Below are positions 627 through 37,250 of a stretch of DNA of 64,000 bases, in pieces; the stretch's first letter is position 1, and every line of letters starts with the position of its first letter. The translations under genes and the position numbers were made by a program. This stretch comes from Verrucomicrobiales bacterium (GTDB taxonomy: Bacteria > Verrucomicrobiota > Verrucomicrobiia > Methylacidiphilales > JAAUTS01). Below the pieces are notes generated by a model that saw nothing but the letters and a program-made list of their open reading frames with translations, did not search any database and was not told where the DNA came from. The stretch lies in the NCBI GenBank assembly GCA_031256975.1, contig JAIRPN010000010.1, positions 1-64,000 on the forward strand. The letters are read 5' to 3'.

Positions 627-3600
627 ATGAAAATCCACGTAATCCACATGTCCTTCACATTGCGCCGATCAATGATCTTGGCGTTCATGCTGCTTTCCCT
701 CTGCGCCTCCGCGTTGAATGTCTTTGCCCAATCCACCTGGACGGTCAACGGGGATGGGGACTGGTCGAACGGGGCCAACTGGTCGGCGGGGGTGCCGAAC
801 GGGGTCGGGGCGCAGGCTTCGTTCAACGCGGCGGGGCTGACTTCCAATAAGACCATCACGCTGGATGTGCCGGTCACGGTGGGATCATTTTTCGTGTTCG
901 GCGCGCCGTCGGTCAATACCACGTTGTCGTTCACCGGCAACGACCTGACCTTTAACCAAAGCGGCGGGTCGCTGCTGAGCATCCAGGATTATCATGCGGT
1001 GACTTTTGCCAACAACCTCGTGCTCGGCTCGGACTTGCAGATTCATCTGCCCGCCGACGGCGCGGAAGGGCCGTCGTCGCTGACCTTGAACGGCAATCTG
1101 GCGGGCAACGGCTACGCGCTGAACATCGAGACCGGCTTCCAGACCGGGCAGGTGGTCATCAACGGCGCGATCAGCGGGGCGGGCACGCAGGTCAACAAGA
1201 CCAGCCTGGGCATTTTGCAGCTCAACAGCGGGAACAATTCGTTTGATGGCGGGCTGAATGTCAGCGGCGGGTCGGTGCTGACAAATATCACCAGCAGCGG
1301 CGGCATCGTCCTCGGCAACGCGGTTGCGGGCAGGAACAACCTGGGCGCGGGGGATGTCAGCGTCAGCGGCAACGGGACCTTGCTGCAGATTCGCAGCTCG
1401 GCGGCGAACCAGACGGTGGACCTGCAATCCGGCACGCTGGGTATTGGTTCCGGTGCGCGGGTGGAAGTGATCAAGAACGCCACGGGTCACACGGGCGGCG
1501 CGTTCACCGTCAGCGGCGGCAGCCTCATCGGTTCCGGCACCCTGTATCTTTCCGGCCTGGATTTCAACATGACCGGCGGTTCCATCAGCGGCGCGCCGAA
1601 CTTGTACCTCGACAGCGGCACCGGCGCGACGGCGGCCACGGTGCAGAACATCGGCGGCAACACCGCCATCACCGGTCTGGGCGACATCACCAAGGAAGGT
1701 CCCGGCACCCTGAAAGTCGCCGACACGGTCACCGCGTTGTCAGCGGACAACTTGTTCTTCCGCAGCGGCACCTTGAACTTCGGCAGCGGTGCGGATGTCA
1801 CCCTCAGCGGCACGCTGGCGCTGGGTAATAGCGGCACCGGCGCGCTGGCGCAAAGCATTGTGCTGGGCAAGGCCGGCCAGCTTGACAACGTCAACAACAT
1901 CGTGGTGCTGGACGGTTATGACGACAGCTTCACCAAATACTACAACGTCGCCACGCTGAACCTCGGCGGTTTCGACCAGGGCATTAACAACATCAGCGTC
2001 GGCAATCTCGCCGCCATCCGCCTGGACATGGGCGCGGCAAGCGGGGCGAACACGCTGACGTTGACCGGCAATAACTCCGGTGACGTCAACATCATCAACT
2101 GGCAGGGTAATCCCACCTCGCACCTTGGCGACGGCAACGCGACGGTGTTTGACAAAATCATCCTCACCGGCGGTGTCAATCCCGCCGATGTCTGGGTCTA
2201 TGGCTATGAAAAAGGCGTCGTCGCCGACGGCGGCGCGGGCGAATACAAACCCACCGCCTTCCTCACCGCCGCGTGGAACACCGCCGCCGCCGGCAACTGG
2301 TTCGATTATAAAAACTGGGGATCCGGCACGAACATCGCCGGCATGGAAATCCCCAATCACCCCGGCGCCGTCGCCAACCTCGGCAGTTGGAACAGCGGCA
2401 ATTCCTACATCACTCTCGGCGGCACCATCACCCTCGGCACCTTGCACCGGGGAGATCGGACTGGTGGCGTTTTATCGGGCGGCACCATCATCTGGGACAG
2501 CGGCGTGACTGGCGAGACGGCAAAGTTGATCAATAGCACATACATGTATTTCAACGTCGTCCCGTGGGTTCTCAACAGTGATCTGGAGGTGAACCTGGGG
2601 AGCGTTTTCACCTACAACGATGGGTTGATTAGCGGCACTGGAGGGCTGATTTTCAACGGCGGTTACATGATACGCAATGGCGGCAACACCTACAGCGGCG
2701 GCACGGTTATCAATCCGGGGTCAACCGTCGGCATTTATAATGCCACCGCCAACACCGCGCAAAGTTTTCTCGGCACCGGCACGCTGACCATCAACGGCGG
2801 GTGGCTGCTGGGCGGTGATCGGAACAACGGCACCTCCCGTGCCATCACCATCGTCACCAACCCGCTAACCATCAACGGCGACTTCACCAGCAGCTATCTC
2901 ACCTTCGGCTACGGCGGCGACGTGACCCTCAGCGGCACCCGCACCATTACCGTTAATGAAGGGGCGAACAACGTTACCAGCAATCCATCCGTCGCTTTCA
3001 GTGCCACTACGAATTTAGTCGGCACCGGCGGGCTGATTAAAGCAGGAGCTTATCGCATGGATTTGTTCAGCCCGAACAACACCTTCAGCGGCGGGCTGAC
3101 GGTTAACCAAGGCTATCTCTACACCACGATTGGCGCGGGCGGCTATGTTATCGGTGAACTCGCGCCCGGGCAAAACTACCTTGGCAGCGGCACCGTCATT
3201 GTCAACAGCGGCGCCAACATTTGGAATTACATGGCTGCTGGCAGCGTGGGAGAATTGCGCGGCACGTTGGTGGTCAATGGCGGTTACTTTGGCAACTATG
3301 GCGGTTCCGGTACGATGTTGCTGCAAAATACGGGCACGATCATCGGCGCCAACAACAGCGGCGGCCTCCAATTTCAAAATAACCAGGTGGTGGTGAACAA
3401 CGGCATTACGCTGGTCAACCGTCCGAACCTCAGTTTCAATACCAATGCCTCTGGGAATGAGCAGGTGCTTGCCGGTTTGCCTTTCACGGGGGTTGGTATA
3501 ATTTCCAAAAGCAGCGCTGGCACTCTCCATGTGAACACGCAGGTGAACGGTCAAACCGTGAACCTCGGCGGCGGTGTTTTGCAGCTGAACGTCAACGGCA

Positions 3601-23082: not shown

Positions 23083-23403
23083 ATGGAACACCTTCGCTAC
23101 ACCCCGACCCATTCCGCCGACGAGAACGCCGGCAGGATTTGGGGTATTCGTAACGAATACCTGCTGATTGCGGTGGGTGGCGGCATCGCCGGCATCTGCG
23201 TGATGATGGTTTGCCACATGGCGCATTGTCCGGTGATCGTTTCGGTGCTGGCCGGCTTGGTGCCGCTGACGCTGACCCTGGTTTACATTTTTACGTTCAA
23301 ACACAACCGTCCGCCGTCCTTTGATCTGGACTGCCTGGAACTGCTGATCCACGGCAACCACTGGGGCCGTCATCCGGGGAAAGGGAAGCATGAGCAATCC
23401 TGA
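23083..23403 (+). CDS. VirB3/TraL-like T4SS membrane protein
   Basis: Short protein with a pair of TM segments directly upstream of and overlapping the VirB4-like ATPase. Confidence 0.65.
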   Translation: MEHLRYTPTHSADENAGRIWGIRNEYLLIAVGGGIAGICVMMVCHMAHCPVIVSVLAGLVPLTLTLVYIFTFKHNRPPSFDLDCLELLIHGNHWGRHPGKGKHEQS

Positions 23404-26065
23404 CGGTTATTTCATGGAGGATTTGCTGGTGTGGCAGGAACTTGACCGGCGCGGGTTCATCGCCAAGGGGTTTGCCTTTGACCCCGCCGATTTCCGCAAT
23501 GCTTCGGTGTCCATGCTGAATGAATGGCAGGAAAAATTATGCCGGATGTTCCGTTCACTGGAACAGGCCGTGCACTTGCAGATCAAATGGTCGGTGGATG
23601 CGAACTACCGGGAGGTGTTGGAATATTACCGGCAGCAGACCGGACTGCTGGTAAAGAACGACTTTACCCGTCTGGTGAGGGAAGAACGCTACCAACGCTA
23701 CTGGCAGGGGATGATTGACCGCAAATTGCGCCGCGAGCGTCTTCATCTGTACCTGGCCAAGGCCATCACCGTCACACCGGACGGGCAACACGATTTAGAG
23801 CAAGATAGCAAGCTCCTGCAAGCTTACGCCAACAGCTTCGCCTTGCATGGCGAAGCATTCAATACCATTGCCGGTGAAATGGCCGCATTGGCTCCCATGA
23901 GCGATGCCGACCATTTCCGGCAACTGGCGTATTTTCTCAATCCGTCATTCCACGGGCGCTTCGACTTCGACCCGCTTGACCAGTTCGACCCGCTGAAAAG
24001 CATCCAGGAGAACTGCTGGCAATCGGAGTGTATTGCCGACAAGGGGGTGTTCAAACTGGATGGTTACTACAACCAGTTAATCGTGTTGAAGCGCCTGCCG
24101 AAACACACCTTCCCCGGCATCATCAACGGGTTGACCAGCCTGCCGTTGCTGGATTATTCCATCACGGTCAATTTGTATCCGCTGCCGGTGCAAAAACTGG
24201 TGGACAAACTGGAGAAGGAAATTGACGCCTTGAAAACCGCCTACCGCGCCCAGGGCAAGCGTTCGATTTTGACCACCATCCAGAAGAAGGAGCAGCAGGT
24301 CACCGAATTGACGCAGGGTTATCACTATCCCTTCAAGATGGATTTTGTGGTGCAGGCGTGGGATGCGGAGTTGCAAAAACTGCAAGCCAAGTGCGGAGCC
24401 ATCAAGGCGGCGATCAACGGCATGGGCGGGGCGCAATACTGGGAGGTGAATCATCCGATCACCGCGAAAAAACTCTGGTACCAGACCTGGCCCGGCTGGA
24501 TACACGGTTCATATCGCGCCCACGCGCTGGACGTCAGCGACGTGCACGCCGCCGATTTGCTTCCCAGTAGCAGCACTTTTTCCGGCCATCTATTGGGAGC
24601 GGAAGCGTTGTATGAGGGTTCCAACCGGAATCTTATCGGGGTGAAAAACTTCATTAATGACACGCCTCAGTCGGCGGTGTTGTTCGGTGACACGGGCGCG
24701 GGCAAATCGGCCTTGTTGTGTGATTTGCTGGCGCAGACCGAACCGTATTACGCCTACACCGTCATCATCGAAGAAGGACTTTCCTACGGCATCTACACGC
24801 AGTTGATGGGAGAAAGACCGATCATCATCCAACCGGACGGCGATTTGACCCTGAATTATTTCGATACGCAAGGCTTGCCGCTGTCGTCATTGCAACTGGC
24901 GACTTGCACGGCCCTGGTGTCGCAGATGGCCGGGAAAATGGCCGATGAGGACAAGCAGAATCTGCGTTCCTCATTGATCTACCAATACATCGATGAGTTG
25001 TACAACGCAGTGTACGAGGACTGGCAGCAGTCGCACAGCGACCTATTGCCTGAAATTGCCCGCCGTGCTTACGCGGTGAATCAATTCCGCCTGAAACGGA
25101 TGCCGGTTGGCAGCACCTACCTGGAAGCGTGGGCGGAGTTGCGGGACTTGTTGGTCGCCAACGATGAATTTGCTTCTGAATTATTGGCAAAGGTTTCGGA
25201 GGAAAACATTTCGCAGATGCTGAAGGATTTTTCCCAGGGGAAAATCATGCGCAACACGGCCCTGGCTTGGTTCAAGCCGGAGGACTACCCGCAGCACACC
25301 CACCTGTATGAAATCATGCGCCATACCCCGATGCGCCAGCATGACAAGAACGTGGTGGGGGACTTGGCTTCACTCCTGGCACCGTGGTGCGCGGGCGGCC
25401 CCTACGGAAAATTATTCGACGGTATCAGCAATTTGTCGCTGACCGGCAGGCTGGCGCATTTTGAACTGGGTTACATTCCCGATGCGGCGAAGGAATTGAA
25501 GGCGTTGGCCGGTTTCCTGATCAGCAACCACATGCGCCAGCACATTGTCACCCTGCCAAGGGGGTTGTGGAAACGGAAGATCGACGAGGAAATGGTGCGT
25601 CGCTTGTCGGTGCCCGGCGCGGAGAAAATCGTCGAGGAAGAATATTCGGGCTTCCGCAAATACAACTGCTGGAACATCTCGGTGATCCAGCAATATGCCA
25701 AGTTCAAGCAGTCGCCTGTCAGGCCGGTGGTGATGGGAAACTCGAAGCAGTTCTTTTTCCTGAAAATGGCGGATCTGGGCGACCTGGAGGATATTTCCCA
25801 TGACGTGGCCCTGCCGGAAATCACCAAGCGGGCCATCAACACCTATCCGTCGCCGGAGAATCTGCCCGCACAGAACCGCTATTCGTCACTGACTTATCTG
25901 CACCGTACCGGTGGCAGACCGGTTTGCGGCACGGTGCATCACCGGGCCAGCCGTCCGATGCTCTATGTGTCGTCCAGCACCGGCGCGGATTTTGACCGGC
26001 GGGCCAAGGCTCTGAAAAGGTATCCCTCGGTGTTGGAGGGGGTGTTGGCGGAGTCAGGCAAATAA
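23390..26065 (+). CDS. VirB4/TrbE/TraC-like conjugation ATPase
   Basis: 891 aa; Walker A SAVLFGDTGAGKSALLCDLL; long N-terminal VirB4-type domain. Confidence 0.88.
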   Translation: MSNPDGYFMEDLLVWQELDRRGFIAKGFAFDPADFRNASVSMLNEWQEKLCRMFRSLEQAVHLQIKWSVDANYREVLEYYRQQTGLLVKNDFTRLVREERYQRYWQGMIDRKLRRERLHLYLAKAITVTPDGQHDLEQDSKLLQAYANSFALHGEAFNTIAGEMAALAPMSDADHFRQLAYFLNPSFHGRFDFDPLDQFDPLKSIQENCWQSECIADKGVFKLDGYYNQLIVLKRLPKHTFPGIINGLTSLPLLDYSITVNLYPLPVQKLVDKLEKEIDALKTAYRAQGKRSILTTIQKKEQQVTELTQGYHYPFKMDFVVQAWDAELQKLQAKCGAIKAAINGMGGAQYWEVNHPITAKKLWYQTWPGWIHGSYRAHALDVSDVHAADLLPSSSTFSGHLLGAEALYEGSNRNLIGVKNFINDTPQSAVLFGDTGAGKSALLCDLLAQTEPYYAYTVIIEEGLSYGIYTQLMGERPIIIQPDGDLTLNYFDTQGLPLSSLQLATCTALVSQMAGKMADEDKQNLRSSLIYQYIDELYNAVYEDWQQSHSDLLPEIARRAYAVNQFRLKRMPVGSTYLEAWAELRDLLVANDEFASELLAKVSEENISQMLKDFSQGKIMRNTALAWFKPEDYPQHTHLYEIMRHTPMRQHDKNVVGDLASLLAPWCAGGPYGKLFDGISNLSLTGRLAHFELGYIPDAAKELKALAGFLISNHMRQHIVTLPRGLWKRKIDEEMVRRLSVPGAEKIVEEEYSGFRKYNCWNISVIQQYAKFKQSPVRPVVMGNSKQFFFLKMADLGDLEDISHDVALPEITKRAINTYPSPENLPAQNRYSSLTYLHRTGGRPVCGTVHHRASRPMLYVSSSTGADFDRRAKALKRYPSVLEGVLAESGK

Positions 26066-26097
26066 TTTTTAGGAACAATCAAACCAAAGGACAGAAG

Positions 26098-27018
26098 ATG
26101 AAGAAGATAATCGGAAAATTACTGGCCGCGCCCCTGTTGGGCGCGGCGTTAAGCGCCAACGCATGGGCCGGGGGCTGGACCAGCGTCAGCGGCACGGGGC
26201 AGGCGGCCAGCGACGGGTTGTTGCTGGTCACTTCCAACTGGAACACCACCCTCACCGGGGCGATTTCCACGGACGGCAGCACCTACACTCAGCGCTTTGA
26301 AGTGTCCAAGCGTGACGAATACGGGCAGGGCTACACCAGCGCGACCATGCCGGTGTGCAAGGACGAATACTGGAAAATCACCGGCGCCAAAAGCGTCTGG
26401 TTTTTCAAGCTGGAAGGCAGCGACGGCGCGGACGGGCTGGACGGCCAGGTGGCGGTGATCGAGACGGCAGTCAACGATTTGGAGCGTGAAATTGACCGCA
26501 TCCAGGACGACATCAATGCCATCGGCGGGGGCCTGGATGCGATCAACGGCAATCTGGCCGGACTGGGCAATGACCTGGCTTCCATCAGGAGCGAGTTGAT
26601 TACCTACGGCGACACGCTGGTCTGGTTGCAGCAGCAGTTAAGTGATTTACAGAATCAGGAACAGTCCCATGTCGCGGACTTGCAGGAAAAAATCGACGCC
26701 TTGACGGTGACGATGGACGGATTGCGTGACGAGGTAAATGGGCAGATCGTGGCGCTGACCAAGCGGCTGGACGGTTTTGACAGCCGGTTGACCGACTTGG
26801 AGCAAAAAGTCGCTACGCAAGGTTCCGGCAAACAATCCTCCTCCGACTGGTGGGGCAAGGCGGGGGCCGGTCTTGGCGTGGCCGGGGTTGGCATTGCGGT
26901 CGGGCATTTGGTTTCGGACGAAGACAATGCGGATGAAAAAGAGCCGGCAGAAGGTTGCGGTGCTCCCGTGCCCGCCGCTCACACCCGTCCGGGCTATCAG
27001 GAAGCTACCGGGAATTAA
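26098..27018 (+). CDS. Secreted coiled-coil protein with C-terminal hydrophobic segment, T4SS operon accessory
   Basis: Signal peptide MKKIIGKLLAAPLLGAALSANAWA; GSDGADGLDGQ linker; heptad-rich region; C-terminal GKAGAGLGVAGVGIAVGHLV. Confidence 0.6.
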   Translation: MKKIIGKLLAAPLLGAALSANAWAGGWTSVSGTGQAASDGLLLVTSNWNTTLTGAISTDGSTYTQRFEVSKRDEYGQGYTSATMPVCKDEYWKITGAKSVWFFKLEGSDGADGLDGQVAVIETAVNDLEREIDRIQDDINAIGGGLDAINGNLAGLGNDLASIRSELITYGDTLVWLQQQLSDLQNQEQSHVADLQEKIDALTVTMDGLRDEVNGQIVALTKRLDGFDSRLTDLEQKVATQGSGKQSSSDWWGKAGAGLGVAGVGIAVGHLVSDEDNADEKEPAEGCGAPVPAAHTRPGYQEATGN

Positions 27019-27020
27019 CA

Positions 27021-27428
27021 ATGACTGTTCCACGATTTTTACCCCTGTTGCTGGTGGTGCTGTCCCTGGCCGCGTGTTCCAGCCGTGCCTTGTACGATAC
27101 GGCGGGAGCCGGGGCGGGGGCGGTGATTGCCAACCAATTGAGCGACGGCGACGCGATGATGACCGCCGTCGGCGCGGGCGGCGGGGTGTTGGCCTCGGAG
27201 TTGTTGCAGGGCGCCGCCGAGAACGGGCGACGGGAACAGTACAACCGGGGCTATGACCGGGGCGCGTCGGACGCCGCCAAGCGGATGTACTGGGTGACGC
27301 AGAATTTGCAGCAGCCCGATGCCAGGCGGGAAACGAAACTCCGTTATTACACCTTTCCGGCGGGCGGCATGGCGGCGGACGGCGTGAACGAACAACCCTA
27401 TGAGGTGACCGTGCCGGTGGAGGAATAA
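27021..27428 (+). CDS. Putative lipoprotein in T4SS operon
   Basis: ATG at 27021 (track start 26955): MTVPRFLPLLLVVLSLAACSSRALYDTAGAGAGAVIANQL, lipobox LAAC. Confidence 0.65.
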   Translation: MTVPRFLPLLLVVLSLAACSSRALYDTAGAGAGAVIANQLSDGDAMMTAVGAGGGVLASELLQGAAENGRREQYNRGYDRGASDAAKRMYWVTQNLQQPDARRETKLRYYTFPAGGMAADGVNEQPYEVTVPVEE

Positions 27429-27431
27429 ACC

Positions 27432-28166
27432 ATGCACTATTTTTTATCAACGATGGCGGCCTTGTGGCTGGCTGGCAATTTATTGCATGCGCAATATGCC
27501 ACCAGCGACGCGTTGACCCACGCCTTGATTGAGCAAAAGACTGCCCAGGATTTGGACAAATGGGCTGAACAACTGGCCCGGATGAACGACCAGTTGACAC
27601 AGGGAAAACGGATCATTGACCTGACCGGCGACCCGGCGCAGGCGGTCGGGGCCGTGGGTGCGGTGGCGGGCGTAGACCCGACCGTCAAATCCGGTGTCAC
27701 CTCGTCACTGGCGTCCCTGCAAAAGAGTATCAATGCCGGACAATCCTTGTACTGGAACGGCAACGGCTTGTACCAACAGTTGCCCAATACCTTGCCGGAT
27801 GGCGGGAAAATCACCCGCGACCTTGACTCGTACAAGTCAATCGCCGCCTTTGAAAACACTTATGACCGTTATGTGCTGGGAGCGGACAAGTTGCAGGGGG
27901 CACGGGACAAATTGCTCAGGGATATCGAGGTGACCCAGTCGCTTGCCGTTACCACCGAGAGCCAGCAGCGTGAGAAGCAGGCAAAGCTTGCCGTGCAGCA
28001 GGCACAGTTGGCGGCCTTGGACCAGGAACGGGCACGGCTTTATGAGGAAGCGGCAATCCAGAAAGCCGCCAACGACGAGCAACGCATCAAGCAGGAACAG
28101 GCGCAGCGCGAGGGCAACCACAGCGAACGGCAAAACTTCTGGGAACAACAGGCACAGCAGAATTAA
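27432..28166 (+). CDS. VirB5/TrbJ-like T4SS protein
   Basis: Signal peptide, helical region (LDKWAEQLARMNDQLTQGKRIIDLTGD), coiled-coil C-terminus; position in operon. Confidence 0.6.
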   Translation: MHYFLSTMAALWLAGNLLHAQYATSDALTHALIEQKTAQDLDKWAEQLARMNDQLTQGKRIIDLTGDPAQAVGAVGAVAGVDPTVKSGVTSSLASLQKSINAGQSLYWNGNGLYQQLPNTLPDGGKITRDLDSYKSIAAFENTYDRYVLGADKLQGARDKLLRDIEVTQSLAVTTESQQREKQAKLAVQQAQLAALDQERARLYEEAAIQKAANDEQRIKQEQAQREGNHSERQNFWEQQAQQN

Positions 28167-28175
28167 GCCAATGAT

Positions 28176-29369
28176 ATGAAGGATTTAACCGACCAACTTT
28201 ATCAATTTTTGCTCAGCGACCTGCACTCGGCGGTGATGGCCTTTGCCGACACGCTTTTGCAACTGGCCTTCGTGATTATCGTGCTGGGCATCGGTTGGAG
28301 CGCGTTGAAGCACCGTTTCCGCCATGATACCGGCGATTTGCTTTGGGCGGTTGCGGCGGCGGGCATCATTGCCGGGCTGATTGCGGTGTGGCCGGCCCTG
28401 GCGGAACCCCTGGGGAATTTTCACCGGATTGTCGAGGGGCTTTCAGGGCAAATCCGCCAGAACGTGATGGGCGCTTATTCCGGGGCGCTGGCTGCTTTTG
28501 AAAAAGGCAGCCTGCGCTGGTCGCTGCTGGTTGACCCGGTGGACTGCATCACCGGGGTGATCGTGTACTTCATGTCCTGGGCGGGCTTCATCGTGATGAG
28601 TTGTGCCAAGCTGTTGCAGTTTTTCCTGATTGAATTGTCGCTGGCGTTTTCATCGGTGTTTTTGTCGCTGTTCGCGTTCCAGGCTACCCGCAGCATCGGG
28701 GTCAATTTCGTGAGCGGCTCCATCGGCTTGTTTTTGTGGCCGCTGACCTGGAACTTTGTCGATCTGGCGCTGATGCCGATGGCGAAGTATGCCGCCGCGC
28801 AGGCGGCCGCTCCGATGGTCATGCTCAATACCATGGGCTGCCTGGCGGCCTGCACCCTGCTTGGGTACATTCTGGCCCCGTTCTGGCTGACCCACAAGCT
28901 GAAGACCGGCGGCGATCCGGGTTCCGCATTGGTGGGAGCCAGTGTCGGGTTGACGGCGGCGCTGGCCGCCTTTGCCGCCAAGATCGGTTTGTCGCTGGCC
29001 TTGGGTAATCCGGTCCCCGCAGTTGAAGGTGCGGCCTCGCTTGGCAAGGAAACGAAAGACGGGGGAGGCAAGGAGCCGCCGCCCCCGTCCTCTGGCGGTG
29101 GTAGTGACCCGTTACCGCCCGTTGACCCAGCACCGGTGCCACTGGCACCTGTTTCTTCCGGTGGTTCGTCAAGCGGTGGCGGAGCGGCAGTTTCCTATCC
29201 CGGCGGTGTTTCATCGGGCAACAAGGCAAGTGTCAGCGTCCCCATGGCGGACTTGGTGGAACCGCCGCCCTTGCCGGCTGTTGTCAAGATGACCCCGCCC
29301 GAAGGCGTGGCGTTGACCCCGACTTTTACCCCGCATCCGAACACCCTGATCGGACAAACCATCAACTAA
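28176..29369 (+). CDS. VirB6/TrbL-like polytopic T4SS channel protein
   Basis: Multiple TM segments with Pro/Gly/Ser-rich C-terminal tail, TrbL-like. Confidence 0.7.
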   Translation: MKDLTDQLYQFLLSDLHSAVMAFADTLLQLAFVIIVLGIGWSALKHRFRHDTGDLLWAVAAAGIIAGLIAVWPALAEPLGNFHRIVEGLSGQIRQNVMGAYSGALAAFEKGSLRWSLLVDPVDCITGVIVYFMSWAGFIVMSCAKLLQFFLIELSLAFSSVFLSLFAFQATRSIGVNFVSGSIGLFLWPLTWNFVDLALMPMAKYAAAQAAAPMVMLNTMGCLAACTLLGYILAPFWLTHKLKTGGDPGSALVGASVGLTAALAAFAAKIGLSLALGNPVPAVEGAASLGKETKDGGGKEPPPPSSGGGSDPLPPVDPAPVPLAPVSSGGSSSGGGAAVSYPGGVSSGNKASVSVPMADLVEPPPLPAVVKMTPPEGVALTPTFTPHPNTLIGQTIN

Positions 29370-29385
29370 TTGAAAGACCACCCCC

Positions 29386-29865
29386 ATGCGCAGAATCATT
29401 GACCAATTGTTCGCCGTCAACCTGAAGAAAGTATTGGAAGCCTACGGACATCTACCCGCTTTCGAGCGGGCCCTTGCCAAACCCGACCCTGACAACGTTT
29501 TTGCGGTTGGCCTTGACAACCCGCCCTATCAAAAACTGCATGTCGAGGTGCTGCCGCCGGAAATGAACCGGTTCAACGTGCCCGCCGTGGCGGTGTCGCA
29601 CACCTTCGTGCAGAACGGCGACCTGATGCGCGATCCCGAGATTGTTTTTGCCGTCAAACCGGAAGGCTGGGTGCCCTATGAATGTACCCAGGACCCGCTG
29701 GGCCATTATGCGAGCGCCTTTGATGCGGACGGAAAATTTGACGAAAAAATCAGCGCTGACATGCGGCAATTGTCCGTGGTCTGGGCAAGAAACCTGATCG
29801 GGCAGGGCTGGGCCGGACAGCAGGCCGACCAGTCCCAATCCCGATCCATAAAACCCGGACTCTGA
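29386..29865 (+). CDS. Hypothetical protein, mobile-element associated (resembles the DUF6908 family by memory)
   Basis: VSHTFVQNGDLMRDPEIVFAVKPEGWVPYECTQDPLGHYASAF; family label unverified. Confidence 0.45.
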   Translation: MRRIIDQLFAVNLKKVLEAYGHLPAFERALAKPDPDNVFAVGLDNPPYQKLHVEVLPPEMNRFNVPAVAVSHTFVQNGDLMRDPEIVFAVKPEGWVPYECTQDPLGHYASAFDADGKFDEKISADMRQLSVVWARNLIGQGWAGQQADQSQSRSIKPGL

Positions 29866-29871
29866 CTCTTT

Positions 29872-30489
29872 ATGCAACCCAATCCCATTCAAATTTTCAC
29901 CAACAACCGGCAGGCGGCGCGGTTCTGGTTCTTTACCTTCCTCTGCACGCTGATGGCGCTGGCGGTAATGCCGTATTTATTGGTGCGCGCCTGCCGGGTG
30001 CCGGAACGGGCGGTCATTTTGAACACGGCCACCGGCAGCATGGTGTACGCGCCGGTCATAGGCTTCATGGAGGCGGACGAGTTGCACGCCTATCACGCCA
30101 GGCTGGCAACCCTGGCGTTGCTGCAAACCAATCCCAACGGGCCCGATTTTTCCGAACTGATCGACCGCCTGTTCCTGGCCGGTGCGCGGAAACAGGTGCG
30201 CAATGCCTTTGCCGCCGGCGAGGATTTGTACAAATCCAAGCAACTGCGCCAGAAACCGGAAATTGCCGAGATCAAGATTTTGCACGGCAGCGGCAAGGTC
30301 GGCGGCCTGCCCGCCGTGGACGTGCAGGTCAGCGGCCAATTGATCCGCAGCGGTATCAGCAACGGCATGAGCTTTGCCGAGCCGGTGAATTTTACCATCC
30401 GTTACGCGCTGGTGCGCAATCCCGATTTATTGAACAACAACCTGTTTCCGCTCGCCGTGGGAACTTACCGCTATCAGGAGCAGCCATGA
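29872..30489 (+). CDS. VirB8/TraE-like T4SS protein
   Basis: ~205 aa with a single N-terminal TM and soluble periplasmic domain, between the B6- and B9-like genes. Confidence 0.6.
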   Translation: MQPNPIQIFTNNRQAARFWFFTFLCTLMALAVMPYLLVRACRVPERAVILNTATGSMVYAPVIGFMEADELHAYHARLATLALLQTNPNGPDFSELIDRLFLAGARKQVRNAFAAGEDLYKSKQLRQKPEIAEIKILHGSGKVGGLPAVDVQVSGQLIRSGISNGMSFAEPVNFTIRYALVRNPDLLNNNLFPLAVGTYRYQEQP

Positions 30490-31310
30490 GAATCATCAGT
30501 TATTTAACCGTCAGTTTATTGTTGTGGCTGCCGCCGCTAATGGCGGGGCCGTCGGTCAGGCAGTACCCGCTGGATGAAAACCTTGTGCACGAGGTGCCGG
30601 TGGCGCTTGACGAGGGAACCACGGTATTTTTGTTCCCGTCGAAAATCAACGGCATCTATGCGCGGAAGGTGTCGCTCGATTTGAGCGACGCGGCGGATTT
30701 CACCATGACTTATCAGCCCGGACAGTTTTATTTCACTATCAATGCCAGGAGAGAGGGGGTGCGGGATGTCGTCAGCGTGGTGATGGGCAAGCGGGTTTAT
30801 CAAATCCGCATCAGGGCCGAGCGGGAAAAACCGGTGCTGACCGCTTCCTTTTACCAGGTTGCCCGGCAGGGGAAGGCGGCGGCAGTTTCGCCTGACAAAT
30901 TGCTGTCGCTGCTGGACAAGAGCAAGCTGTATTACCAGTTGCGGCAGCACTACCCGCAGGACGCGGAACAAATTGACCACATCTCCCCGAAGAATGTCCT
31001 CTGTTACCGCGACTTCACCGTGACGGTGCAGGATGTCTGGCGTTACGAGGCCGAGGATACCCTGGTGTTTCGCGTCCTGTTGAAAAATTTGAGCGACCTG
31101 CCCATTGACTACCTCGCCAATGAAATCGCCGTGCGGGTTGGGCAGCGCATTTATCCCGCCGCGTTGGTGGATGCCGCCGGGGTTATGCCGCCCCGCTCCG
31201 TTGTTCCCGTTTATTTTGCCATCAGCGGATCGCCGGAGGGCGGGCGCAATCATCTTTCAGTCAACAACCGCTGGAACATTCTGGTGCCAAGAAAGGACAA
31301 GGAATCATGA
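30486..31310 (+). CDS. VirB9/TrbG/TraK-like T4SS outer-membrane-complex protein
   Basis: Signal peptide; beta-rich; order immediately upstream of the VirB10-like gene; ATGA-type overlap on both sides. Confidence 0.65.
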   Translation: MRIISYLTVSLLLWLPPLMAGPSVRQYPLDENLVHEVPVALDEGTTVFLFPSKINGIYARKVSLDLSDAADFTMTYQPGQFYFTINARREGVRDVVSVVMGKRVYQIRIRAEREKPVLTASFYQVARQGKAAAVSPDKLLSLLDKSKLYYQLRQHYPQDAEQIDHISPKNVLCYRDFTVTVQDVWRYEAEDTLVFRVLLKNLSDLPIDYLANEIAVRVGQRIYPAALVDAAGVMPPRSVVPVYFAISGSPEGGRNHLSVNNRWNILVPRKDKES

Positions 31311-32296
31311 ACATTCATCGCATTTTGTTCTTTTTCAAGACCGGCACCGGCAGATTGCTGTTGTTCATGGCCTTGTTCGGCTTGGTGATCTGGCTGGTGA
31401 TTATGGGGCGGGTTGACGGCGGCAAGGTGGTTGAGAACGCCGTCGAAATGGAGAAGCAGGCGGTCGCGGCAGTGGGCAAGGTGACCACTTACGTCAATCA
31501 GACCACGCCCATGTCGGGTAGTGGCACGACGAATAGTAAGCTCAAGACAGAGGGAAAAGGGGCTATGCCACCACAGCCGCGTTCAACTGCGCTGTATGTT
31601 GATCCGCAAGTACAGGTCAGTGAGGACTATGCGCCCTTTGGCCGGTTGTTGGAATGCCAGTTGGTCATCACGCTGGATTCCAGCCGCACCCAGACCCCGA
31701 TCATCGGGCAGGTACTGAAGGATGTTTATCATGATGGCCGGTTGATTATTCCCGCCGGGGCCGAGATTCACGGCATGGCGCAGGTGGACCGTTCCCGCGA
31801 CCGCATTACCGCGCAGGAAAAATGGTCGCTGGTCTGGCGTTTTCCGCATGACCCGATGAACGGCTATGAGTTGCCGCTGACGGGGATTGCCCTGGCGCAT
31901 CTGCCCGATGCCAACGGCCAGGGTTGGAGCATCATCGACGGCAGCGCGGGCTTGCCCGGTGAGCTGATCAAGAGCGACAAGTGGGCGGAGATCAAATTGT
32001 TCGCCGCGACCTTTATTCAGGGAATCGGGCAGGGCTTGGGTTCCTCGGAAATGTTGTACACCGGCAACGGGGTGTACCAGTCGTCTGCCGGCACCATCAA
32101 GAACGGCCTGGCGAAGGGGGCCGAACTGATGACCCAGGCTTACGCCCAGCAAATCCAGCAGTCCATCCAGCGCGACGGCTTCTTTGTCCGGGTGGCGGCG
32201 GGAACGCCGTTTTATTTGTACGTCACCCAGACTATCGATTTGGCCGATGCCGGTTACGGCATGGCCGCAGTTAACCCTCAACGGAGAAAACCATGA
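31307..32296 (+). CDS. VirB10/TrbI-like T4SS protein
   Basis: Single TM, then AGTPFYLYVTQTIDL and QTPIIGQVLKDVYHDGRLIIPAGAEIHGMAQVDRSRDRI, matching the VirB10 C-terminal pattern. Confidence 0.85.
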   Translation: MNIHRILFFFKTGTGRLLLFMALFGLVIWLVIMGRVDGGKVVENAVEMEKQAVAAVGKVTTYVNQTTPMSGSGTTNSKLKTEGKGAMPPQPRSTALYVDPQVQVSEDYAPFGRLLECQLVITLDSSRTQTPIIGQVLKDVYHDGRLIIPAGAEIHGMAQVDRSRDRITAQEKWSLVWRFPHDPMNGYELPLTGIALAHLPDANGQGWSIIDGSAGLPGELIKSDKWAEIKLFAATFIQGIGQGLGSSEMLYTGNGVYQSSAGTIKNGLAKGAELMTQAYAQQIQQSIQRDGFFVRVAAGTPFYLYVTQTIDLADAGYGMAAVNPQRRKP

Positions 32297-34534: not shown

Positions 34535-34569
34535 CACCCGCACGGTGGCGCAGTGTCGCCGTGCGGGTG
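34535..34569. promoter_or_regulatory. 11-bp perfect inverted repeat (CACCCGCACGG...CCGTGCGGGTG) between the operon end and dcm
   Basis: Read directly; 13-nt loop; lies 11 bp upstream of the ATG at 34580. Confidence 0.6.
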
Positions 34570-34579
34570 GTTCGTCTTC

Positions 34580-35527
34580 ATGCAACCCACTCATGTCCTG
34601 GATTATCAGCCATGCGCTCATGCGCCGTTACGGGAACTCCATCTCTTTGCCGGAGGCGGGGGCGGCATCCTTGCGTCCAGGCTGCTCGGCCACCGGGTCG
34701 TCTGCGCCGTCGAAATCGCCCCCTATGCCGCAAGCATACTTGTCGCCAGACAAAATGACGGCTTTTTCGCGCCTTTCCCAATCTGGGATAACATTTGCAC
34801 CTTTGATGGCAGGCCATGGCGAGGCCATGTTGACGTGGTGGCTGGCGGCTTTCCCTGCCAGGACATCAGCAGCGCAGGCAAGGGGGCCGGCATTGACGGG
34901 GAACGCAGCGGGCTCTGGCGCGAATTTTCAAGAATCATTGGCGAGGTTCGACCGCTCTTCGCATTCGTGGAGAATTCGCCAATGCTCACTGTTCGGGGGC
35001 TTGGACGAGTTCTCGGCGACCTGGCCGCGCTGGGGTATGATGCAAGATGGGGTGTGCTGGGCGCTGCCGACCTTGGCGCCCCGCACCAGCGGGAGCGTAT
35101 CTGGATTGTGGCTGCCGACGCCATTGGCCAGCGATGCGAACAGCGGCAGGCTTTGTCGGCACGACCGCTTCTATCAAAACCAGACGGGATCGTTGTGCCG
35201 GATTACCCGCAATGGCAAACGCTGGACTGTGGGGCTGGGACGCTTGGTGCAATTATGGCCGACGCCAACCGCCTCCGATGCCACCAAGTGGAACAACATG
35301 ACCGCCGGGGAACGCTTGGCCAAGGGACAGATGGTGCGGCTGGGCAACTCGCTATCCACTACGGAGAACCGGGTTGGTGGCAAGCTGAACCCGCGCTGGG
35401 TCGAGTGGCTGATGGGGTGGCCAATCGGGCACACCGACTTAAAGCCCTTGGCAACGGACAAGTCCCTCTATGTGCCGCCACCGCCTGGCAAATCCTCGCA
35501 AACGACTTTCAATTTTTAAGGGCCTGA
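34580..35527 (+). CDS. DNA (cytosine-5) methyltransferase
   Basis: LHLFAGGGGGILASRLLGHRVVCAVE (motif I), AGGFPCQDISSAGKGAG (motif IV PCQ), FVENS (ENV-like), PHQRERIWIVA (QRR-like), LKALGNGQVPLCAATAW (motif X). Confidence 0.92.
   Translation: MQPTHVLDYQPCAHAPLRELHLFAGGGGGILASRLLGHRVVCAVEIAPYAASILVARQNDGFFAPFPIWDNICTFDGRPWRGHVDVVAGGFPCQDISSAGKGAGIDGERSGLWREFSRIIGEVRPLFAFVENSPMLTVRGLGRVLGDLAALGYDARWGVLGAADLGAPHQRERIWIVAADAIGQRCEQRQALSARPLLSKPDGIVVPDYPQWQTLDCGAGTLGAIMADANRLRCHQVEQHDRRGTLGQGTDGAAGQLAIHYGEPGWWQAEPALGRVADGVANRAHRLKALGNGQVPLCAATAWQILANDFQFLRA
34593..35519 (+). other. Full-length ORF overlapping dcm in another frame, protein-like (candidate dual coding)
   Basis: Track ORF 34545..35519 (GTG); internal ATG at 34593. 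ARTSAAQARGPALTG..SLFGGLDEFSATWPRWGMMQDGVCWALPT..LWPTPTASDATKW..LNPRWVEWLMGWPIGHTDLKPLATDK. Confidence 0.5.
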
Positions 35528-35554: not shown

Positions 35555-36346
35555 ATGACATCGACTAAAAAAATCACCAAGGACCGTATTAAACCCGCCG
35601 TTCGCTGGCCGGGCGGCAAATCCCGCCTGCTCAAGGAATTGTTACCGCTGATTCCGCCGCATACCTGTTATGTGGAGCCATTCGCCGGTGGGTTGGCCAT
35701 GCTGTTGGCCAAGGCCCCGTCACCCATCGAGGTGATTAACGACATCAACCATGACCTGGTCGGCTTTTACCGCTGTGTGCGTTTCCACCGCGACGAACTG
35801 TTGACCGAATTGGAATTTGTGTTGAACAGCCGCGAGGAATTTAATGATTTTCGCCAGCAACCCGGCCTGACCGACATTCAGCGGGCCGCCCGTTGGTTCT
35901 TCCGCAACAAGACTTGCTTTGGCGGGGCAAACCTGGACGTGTTCGGCACCTCGGCCACCACCGCCATGAGTTCACGGGCCGCGCGTATGGAGGCTATTCG
36001 CGCCCTCAATTACCGCCTGGACAAGACCACTATTGAACACCGCGACTGGCAGCAGGTCATGAAGTTGTATGACCGTAGTGAGACGTTTTTCTTCATCGAT
36101 CCGCCCTACACCGGTTGCAAGATTCCGATGTACGACGAGTGGGAGATCAACGATGTCAGAAGAATGAGGGATTTTTTGTTCACGCTGAAGGGGAAGTGGC
36201 TGCTGACTTTTAACGATATCCCGGAGATTCGGCGAATCTTTGACGGTTGCGAGATCAAGGGCGTTGCCCGTCACCGAGGCGTTAATAACAAGCAGGGGGC
36301 CAAAATCTACCGGGAATTGATTATCCGGCCAGGCGGGCGTTTATGA
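35555..36346 (+). CDS. DNA adenine methyltransferase (Dam / D12 class)
   Basis: VRWPGGKSRLLKELLPLIPPHTCYVEPFAGGLAMLL and FFIDPPYTG (DPPY motif). Confidence 0.92.
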   Translation: MTSTKKITKDRIKPAVRWPGGKSRLLKELLPLIPPHTCYVEPFAGGLAMLLAKAPSPIEVINDINHDLVGFYRCVRFHRDELLTELEFVLNSREEFNDFRQQPGLTDIQRAARWFFRNKTCFGGANLDVFGTSATTAMSSRAARMEAIRALNYRLDKTTIEHRDWQQVMKLYDRSETFFFIDPPYTGCKIPMYDEWEINDVRRMRDFLFTLKGKWLLTFNDIPEIRRIFDGCEIKGVARHRGVNNKQGAKIYRELIIRPGGRL

Positions 36347-36588: not shown

Positions 36589-36921
36589 TTAATTTATTGC
36601 CAAGATTTCGGGCTGTTTTTTGGCAATATGCAATAACTTTAATGCTGCGCCGCTGGGCTTTCTTTCGCCACGTTCCCAAGCTATGGCGGTTCGTTTGGGA
36701 ACATTCAATAATCGGGCAAAAACAGCTTGGCTAGCTCCCATGCGGGTACGAATGCGACGAATTTCAATTGGTGCAATTTTAGATACTGGGGTGGGTAGTT
36801 CCAATGTAGTAGTACGAAGATCATCAATCTTTCCAGCCCGTAATATGTCCAAGCCTTCTCTTGCCGAAGCAATCAGTTCTGATCCGCTAAACAGGTAATT
36901 TTTTTCAATCTTTTTGATCAT
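36589..36921 (-). CDS. HigA/NadS-like antitoxin, XRE HTH
   Basis: IRRIRTRMGASQAVFARLLNVPKRTAIAWERGERKPSGAALKLLHI; directly downstream of the RelE-like gene. Confidence 0.8.
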   Translation of the reverse strand: MIKKIEKNYLFSGSELIASAREGLDILRAGKIDDLRTTTLELPTPVSKIAPIEIRRIRTRMGASQAVFARLLNVPKRTAIAWERGERKPSGAALKLLHIAKKQPEILAIN

Positions 36922-37250
36922 AGCAGTTCCTTTTTAATTTCTGTGGCGATTTCACGTAACGTGATTCGCTCTTTCGCTGTTAAGTTCGTTTTATTTCCTT
37001 TGGTGTAAATCATCACAAAAACAATAATGGCAACTTCTGGCACGCGCAAATAAATGACCCTTGCTCCACCACTTTTTCCCCGTCCCACTATTTTCATTCT
37101 CACTTTGCGAAACCCACCACTGCCCTGTATAACATCCCCTTTGTCAGGTTGCTTCATCAGGTCATTTTGCAATTCTCTTAAAGCTTCATCATCTGTGATT
37201 TCCAATAATCGACGGGTAAATGCAGGAAACTCAATAAAGCTCAATTTCAC
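36918..37250 (-). CDS. RelE/HigB-like toxin
   Basis: MKLSFIEFPAFTRRLLEITDDEALRELQNDLMKQPDKGDVIQGSGGFRKVRMKIVGRGKSGGARVIYLR; 4-bp overlap with the antitoxin. Confidence 0.82.
   Translation of the reverse strand: MKLSFIEFPAFTRRLLEITDDEALRELQNDLMKQPDKGDVIQGSGGFRKVRMKIVGRGKSGGARVIYLRVPEVAIIVFVMIYTKGNKTNLTAKERITLREIATEIKKELL

Follow-up and report, generated by a model that had tools for sequence, protein, structure and literature searches.

A same-strand gene overlap that very probably encodes both subunits of a split C5-cytosine DNA methyltransferase

Introduction

Some C5-cytosine DNA methyltransferases are made of two polypeptides. In M.EcoHK31I, the small (β) subunit of about 176 aa is read from an alternative frame inside the large-subunit gene, and M.EaeI is another two-polypeptide C5-methyltransferase like M.EcoHK31I. 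Enzymes of the M.EcoHK31I type have the specificity YGGCCR and need both chains for methylation. The generic motif IX of C5-methyltransferases reads LTPRExxRLQGFP. In M.EcoHK31I, motifs I-VIII and X are on the large subunit and motif IX is on the small one, while the predicted target-recognition domain (TRD) was placed in the large subunit (PMC3404938). M.AquI also consists of two chains, with the split falling between motifs I-VIII and IX-X (PMC3404938).

Here, we describe a locus in which two open reading frames of 324 codons each overlap in different frames on the plus strand of the window, which is the whole stretch of 64,000 nucleotides that was analysed. The D frame runs from 34553-35527 and the A frame (D+1) from 34545-35519, as in the initial annotation, where the pair had been put forward as a candidate dual-coding gene. 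Based on the comparison of relatives and on structure models, the locus is very probably dual-coding and specifies a C5-cytosine DNA methyltransferase that is naturally split, with an α subunit read from the D frame and a β subunit from the A frame.

Compared by motif layout, the locus is like M.EcoHK31I in having motifs I-VIII and X on α and motif IX on β, and also in that β is encoded in an overlapping alternative frame. In α, the segment from motif VIII to motif X is disordered and under almost no constraint, and a TRD-like region appears to be in β rather than in the large subunit as predicted for M.EcoHK31I; this placement comes from selection and models, of which the β model is weak, and the placement in M.EcoHK31I is itself a prediction. 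The β subunit in the window is also longer than that of M.EcoHK31I, with ~308 aa spanning nearly the whole α gene. A division after motif VIII like that of M.AquI (I-VIII/TRD-IX-X) is found in four relatives (L121, L132, L144 and L153) and in the gene pairs of phages Samy and Abidatro, whereas in the window motif X stays in α, in the D frame, and the genes overlap almost completely.

In the PHROG library, the two frames are members of phrog_363 (α) and phrog_1008 (β), both labelled DNA methyltransferase; these are two separate entries, which do not mention the overlap of two frames in one gene. Both families are also found together in a single ORF, gp69 of Mycobacterium phage Yorick, which resembles the window pair in this respect but is an ordinary monomer with no overlap. 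The principle is known from M.EcoHK31I and M.AquI, and the novelty lies in how nearly complete the overlap is, in the TRD apparently having passed to β, in the paired starts and in the wide distribution. No description of the family was found in the literature on overlapping methyltransferase genes, taken as published papers readable without subscription.

Methods

Relatives were collected with the A frame as query (80 viral and 80 genome loci) and, so as not to select for the A frame, with the D frame as query (80 viral loci). Dereplication to <75% identity in D left 117 loci, with 56% identity for the median pair. The null for the stop counts was obtained by shuffling the D codons synonymously. 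Regional rates were estimated from transitions only in 68 close pairs, and the ratio given is that of changes synonymous in D and nonsynonymous in A to changes nonsynonymous in D and synonymous in A. One row, L252, which came from a plasmid record, was left out for structure modelling.

Results

The D frame is a C5-cytosine DNA methyltransferase, in agreement with the initial annotation of one frame as a 5-mC methyltransferase. It matched PF00145 with E=5e-29, with residues D29-189 aligned to profile positions 4-162 of 324 only, and phrog_363 with 6e-68. The α subunit is located at 34580..35527 (+), where ATG 34580 is the likeliest start and GTG 34553 an alternative in the same frame. Motifs I-VIII are at 34628..35113 (+), as placed by alignment A2 and by a PDB alignment to residues 12-170 of M.HhaI. 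The catalytic PCQ is encoded at 34853-34861 (+) and the ENS containing the Glu-Asn of motif VI at 34970-34978 (+); P92, C93, E131 and N132 are all invariant in alignment A2. SAM motif I, the catalytic PCQ, the ENV-like motif VI and motif VIII of PF00145 are all present in the D frame, and its motif X (GN.V.P) is present as an invariant GNGQV (G291, N292, G293, Q294 and V295 in 34 relatives) in the region RLKALGNGQVPLCAATAW at 35429..35488 (+).

Motif IX and a target-recognition domain were not found on the D chain, where the PF00145 alignment ends at profile position 162, and the match of M.HhaI to D in the PDB sequence alignment is confined to the catalytic half of M.HhaI. The structure model of α is confident at residues 11-200 and 290-310, the latter being the motif X helix, and disordered at 207-289. 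In a fold search, the best PDB match of this model was M.HhaI (E=1e-14, ~170 columns, TM 0.47). As the TRD and motif IX should be at 207-289, disorder in this region agrees with a small domain carried by a separate chain.

The missing motif IX is carried by the A frame, a feature absent from the initial annotation. The A-frame motif LNPxWVEWLMGWPxGW(T) resembles the generic motif IX, and the β motif IX, LNPRWVEWLMGWPIGHTDLK, is located at 35385..35444 (+), with W269, E271, L273, G275 and W276 invariant in 112 sequences. A target-recognition-like region of β with WPTPTASD repeats precedes it, at 35114..35384 (+) between motifs VIII and IX. The β subunit is encoded at 34593..35519 (+), giving 308 aa from ATG 34593, and belongs to the phrog_1008 family (E=3e-32, with residues 59-304 of the A frame aligned to profile positions 5-286). 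The pattern that the initial annotation described as recurring in phage proteins is indeed a known one, phrog_1008, labelled 'DNA methyltransferase'. In the domain library searches, there was no Pfam or NCBIfam match to the A frame.

A phmmer search of A against the PDB gave no match, and a search of the PDB with the A profile gave chance matches only, with no methyltransferase among them. The structure model is weak (pLDDT 60), being best at about 180-245 and in the motif IX helix and largely disordered in the N-terminal half, and Foldseek of this model against the PDB returned nothing below E=0.86. As there is no PDB fold match, the assignment of the TRD to β rests on homology with the split-gene cases and the single-chain enzyme. 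This enzyme has nothing that corresponds to the N-terminal half of A (~150 residues), and split-gene relatives such as Samy 50 lack this half too. The N-terminal half must stay open and is partly constrained, but it may be mainly a by-product of starting beside the α start.

The β ORF overlaps α everywhere except at the ends of α. The probable β start codon is at 34593..34595 (+), 13 nt past the α ATG, and ATG 34580 is the nearest D-frame ATG upstream of it. Homology of A to its relatives starts at residue 17 of the 324-codon ORF, which is ATG 34593, so the GTGs are less likely starts than the ATGs at 34580 (D) and 34593 (A). The GTGs, which give the 324 codons, sit in or beside a 15-bp perfect hairpin at 34535..34569 (+; z = -2.3), directly 5' of both likely starts. 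The hairpin could terminate transcription of the upstream gene or act in translational control. Compared with the relatives, the starts in the window are atypical, as the ATGs are 13 nt apart, the hairpin is 5' of them and there is no good Shine-Dalgarno sequence.

Most relatives begin with ATGAATGAGYTGG, in which D starts at the first ATG and A at the second; a distance of 4 nt from one start to the next was found in 81 of 106 relatives. The second ATG requires the Asn codon of D to be AAT. This codon was AAT in 93 cases and AAC in 1, compared with a background of 718 AAC and 500 AAT. A Shine-Dalgarno 4-mer was found within 20 nt 5' of the A start in 82 of the 106 relatives, against 24.9 expected, and its gap to the A start peaked at 7-9 nt. 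In some relatives, D starts further 5' and the Shine-Dalgarno sequence is inside D, for example AAGGAGAATTAAATG in L001.

The core of the A frame contained 15 stops in the 117 relatives compared with 512 expected, and was open in 112 of them compared with 1.1 expected, which supports the genuine dual coding suggested initially; interruption of A by stops in homologues, which would have spoken against it, is rare. The control frame D+2 had 1834 stops against 1502 expected. The depletion in A was found both in the zone of motifs I-VIII (11 stops vs 360) and between motifs VIII and X (0 vs 101). It was also seen in the 20 relatives with <50% GC, which had 12 stops vs 108 and of which 18 were open vs 0.03 expected. 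Among the usable loci found with the D query, 74 of 76 were free of stops in A once the first 10 and last 20 codons were set aside, and stops cluster only just 5' of the A start and 3' of the A end. The suggestion that the ORF is merely kept open by dcm is contradicted by these counts, since synonymous recoding of D would give ~4 stops per gene in A and almost none are seen. For the window by itself, an open A frame is only moderately unlikely (P about 0.04 by synonymous shuffling of D, at 61% GC).

In a held-out HMM test, A outscored its synonymous shuffles in 117 of 117 relatives (256 vs 121 bits), and so did the control frame D+2 (181 vs 108 bits). This test was therefore not used as proof, and the argument for dual coding is carried by the stop counts, the start-codon lock and the regional rates.

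Synonymous sites of D are strongly constrained, which was one of the checks proposed initially, with a mean codon homozygosity in conserved D columns of 0.57 compared with 0.34 expected. Under WVEWLMGW of the A motif IX, the D codons are frozen at Gly283 (GGT in 110 of 110), Val285 (GTG in 111 of 112), Ala286 (GCT in 95 of 95), Gly288 (GGG in 113 of 114) and Ala290 (GCC in 111 of 111).

An OLGenie-like estimate from all substitutions gave dNN/dSN of 0.31 and dNN/dNS of 0.49; as the doubly synonymous class was saturated by transition bias, the estimate was redone by region with transitions only. For motifs I-VIII the transition-rate ratio was 3.90 (3.38-4.53), compared with 0.55 (CI 0.46-0.64) between motifs VIII and X and 1.61 (1.24-2.07) for the X region; given the small size of the doubly silent classes, these ratios are approximate. 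Between motifs VIII and X, changes that are nonsynonymous in D and synonymous in A had the same rate as doubly synonymous changes (0.197 and 0.197), showing that D is nearly free there, and the rate of A-changing substitutions was halved (0.108). In motifs I-VIII, the rate was 0.135 for changes silent in D that change A and 0.323 for doubly silent changes, the latter at few sites. Selection alternates along the gene, with A constrained between motifs VIII and X and D dominant elsewhere.

The two families occur in several arrangements. In the single ORF of Yorick gp69, phrog_363 matched over 1-404 (1.7e-70) and phrog_1008 over 249-407 (4e-49), and LAAAFPEWMMGWPAGW is at the position of the β motif IX, followed by IIGNGVVPQQA as motif X. 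An hhalign comparison of the A profile (A3) with this single-chain protein (P0014) gave E=3e-7, covering the TRD and motif IX. In Streptomyces phage Samy (49/50) and Arthrobacter phage Abidatro (40/41), the two are separate neighbouring genes, the second of which is a phrog_1008 member with motifs IX and X. The genes of Mycobacterium phage Phanphagia (65/66) overlap partially, likewise at +1, and in Paenibacillus phage Shelly gene 56 is nested in 55 at +1 and annotated as 'g55 internal gene'. In L121, L132, L144 and L153, motif VIII is the last motif of α, and it is the A frame that carries motif X, as in NRAKRLKAIGNGQVPQVVAIAF of L132. In the split, nested and shifted cases, each pair therefore still supplies motifs I-VIII, the TRD and IX, and X, while the boundary moves. 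The family is spread over phages, plasmids, many bacterial phyla and a few archaeal bins.

Two candidate groups were rejected. L123 and L140 were not taken as evidence of single-chain enzymes, as they look like frame-disrupted copies in which an indel joins A-like and D-like segments in one frame, and they are probably decayed or mis-assembled. Mycobacterium phage Llama 74/75 was not accepted as an A/D pair because its split falls inside the catalytic half.

In a Pseudomonas phage record (L163:2488-3229, PP083311.1), only β is annotated, as 'hypothetical protein', and the intact methyltransferase frame was missed.

Discussion

Comparative sequence analysis establishes that this locus is dual-coding, and the proposed two-subunit mechanism is strongly supported. 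The alignments demonstrate that both frames are open and under purifying selection and that the regional constraint is shared between them as a split enzyme predicts. They also demonstrate that both families can be in one phage chain and that motif X is able to move between subunits. Most likely, ribosomes would start at either ATG of one message to give α and β. The α subunit from the D frame would bind SAM and hold the catalytic Cys, with motifs I-VIII and the helix of motif X, by which the SAM fold is closed. From its own ATG, a short way into the α gene, the A frame would give β, with the target-recognition-like region and motif IX. The α chain for chemistry and the β chain for DNA recognition and the motif IX scaffold would then join into one active enzyme. 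We infer that the A frame is expressed as protein, that α and β bind each other and that methylation depends on both.

Along the gene, the constrained segments (D, A, D) follow the single-chain order of motifs I-VIII, TRD, IX and X. This order could also be produced by programmed frameshifting, in which ribosomes leave D for A past motif VIII and return ahead of motif X to give one polypeptide, but that would take two opposite shifts. In addition, relatives with separate genes exist, A has its own conserved ATG and Shine-Dalgarno sequence, and it is open over 150 codons 5' of any shift site (the 11 stops vs 360 noted above). A pure frameshift product, which had been offered as one reading of the overlap, would leave the conserved ATG, the Shine-Dalgarno sequence and the lack of stops 5' of motif VIII unexplained, and we regard frameshifting as very improbable.

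That A has no single-chain counterpart for its N-terminal ~150 residues, and forms a PHROG family of its own, could also mean that it is a real protein with an unrelated job, e.g. anti-restriction or regulatory, overprinted on an ordinary methyltransferase. However, D is without motif IX and a folded target-recognition domain and A supplies the matching segment, and where D loses motif X it is A that carries it, so that an unrelated job for A appears very improbable. It is extremely improbable that only Dcm is translated and that A is a spurious ORF, open and conserved-looking through the Dcm protein, codon usage or GC: the probability for the window only is about 0.04 at 61% GC and shared ancestry raises similarity in both frames, but stops in the relatives are far too few, also below 50% GC, from motif VIII to motif X it is A that is constrained, with D almost free, and phrog_1008 proteins exist as separate genes and fused in one chain.

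Returning to the split enzyme, a broader version can be proposed, to which we give even chances. The locus would belong to a very widespread prokaryotic and phage family in which a whole recognition subunit (TRD and IX) is overprinted on the catalytic subunit over nearly its full length. The ATGs 4 nt apart would share one Shine-Dalgarno sequence and set the ratio of the chains, motif X would have moved between frames in some lineages, and a like split would have arisen separately in other C5-methyltransferase lineages, one of them in the same genome.

Long same-strand dual coding has rarely been established in prokaryotes, and gene callers exclude such overlaps. The family provides many independent examples of dual coding with a predicted joint function of both products. 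A split enzyme would also explain phrog_1008. Of the two subunits, public records annotate one and leave the other out, and an enzyme cloned as a 'DNA cytosine methyltransferase' from its annotated protein only would probably be inactive. The series from single chain to split genes to full overlap offers natural material on the origin of overlapping genes.

Upstream of the locus, there are conjugation-like genes (window 23390-32296), with matches to TrbI (1e-12) and DUF6908 (1e-20) and weak matches to CagX and a TraG P-loop. The methyltransferase seems to be in a conjugative element, not a phage. Directly downstream is a D12-class adenine methyltransferase gene (window 35555-36346; 4e-27), so that two orphan methyltransferases are found side by side. 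An orphan methyltransferase next to a D12 gene in a conjugative-type element would most likely protect the element from host restriction. Further downstream, on the minus strand, is a toxin-antitoxin-like pair (window 36589-37250) with a RelE-type toxin (2e-8) and a helix-turn-helix partner.

The source genome has a second C5-methyltransferase (L244:1099-2001, minus strand; G000:C18 near 100945-101424), with a nested ORF at 1170-1808 (-). Its 300-aa α frame contains this nested +1 ORF of 212 aa, which bears a canonical motif IX, RRMLPSEYERLQGFPKNWT, and matched PF00145 at profile positions 174-297 (4.7e-5). A viral relative, L263, which is 65% identical to L244, keeps the nested ORF (RRLLPSECETLQGFPKGWT). 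L244 is apparently an independent overprinted split enzyme of the M.EcoHK31I kind, which suggests that the nested arrangement has arisen more than once.

In Gordonia phage Keitabear (L258:361-2184), a 607-aa ORF covers a whole single-chain-like methyltransferase. The record has a LAGLIDADG endonuclease in another frame within this ORF and calls only the C-terminal part a DNA methylase; this is possibly a homing-endonuclease insertion read in two frames.
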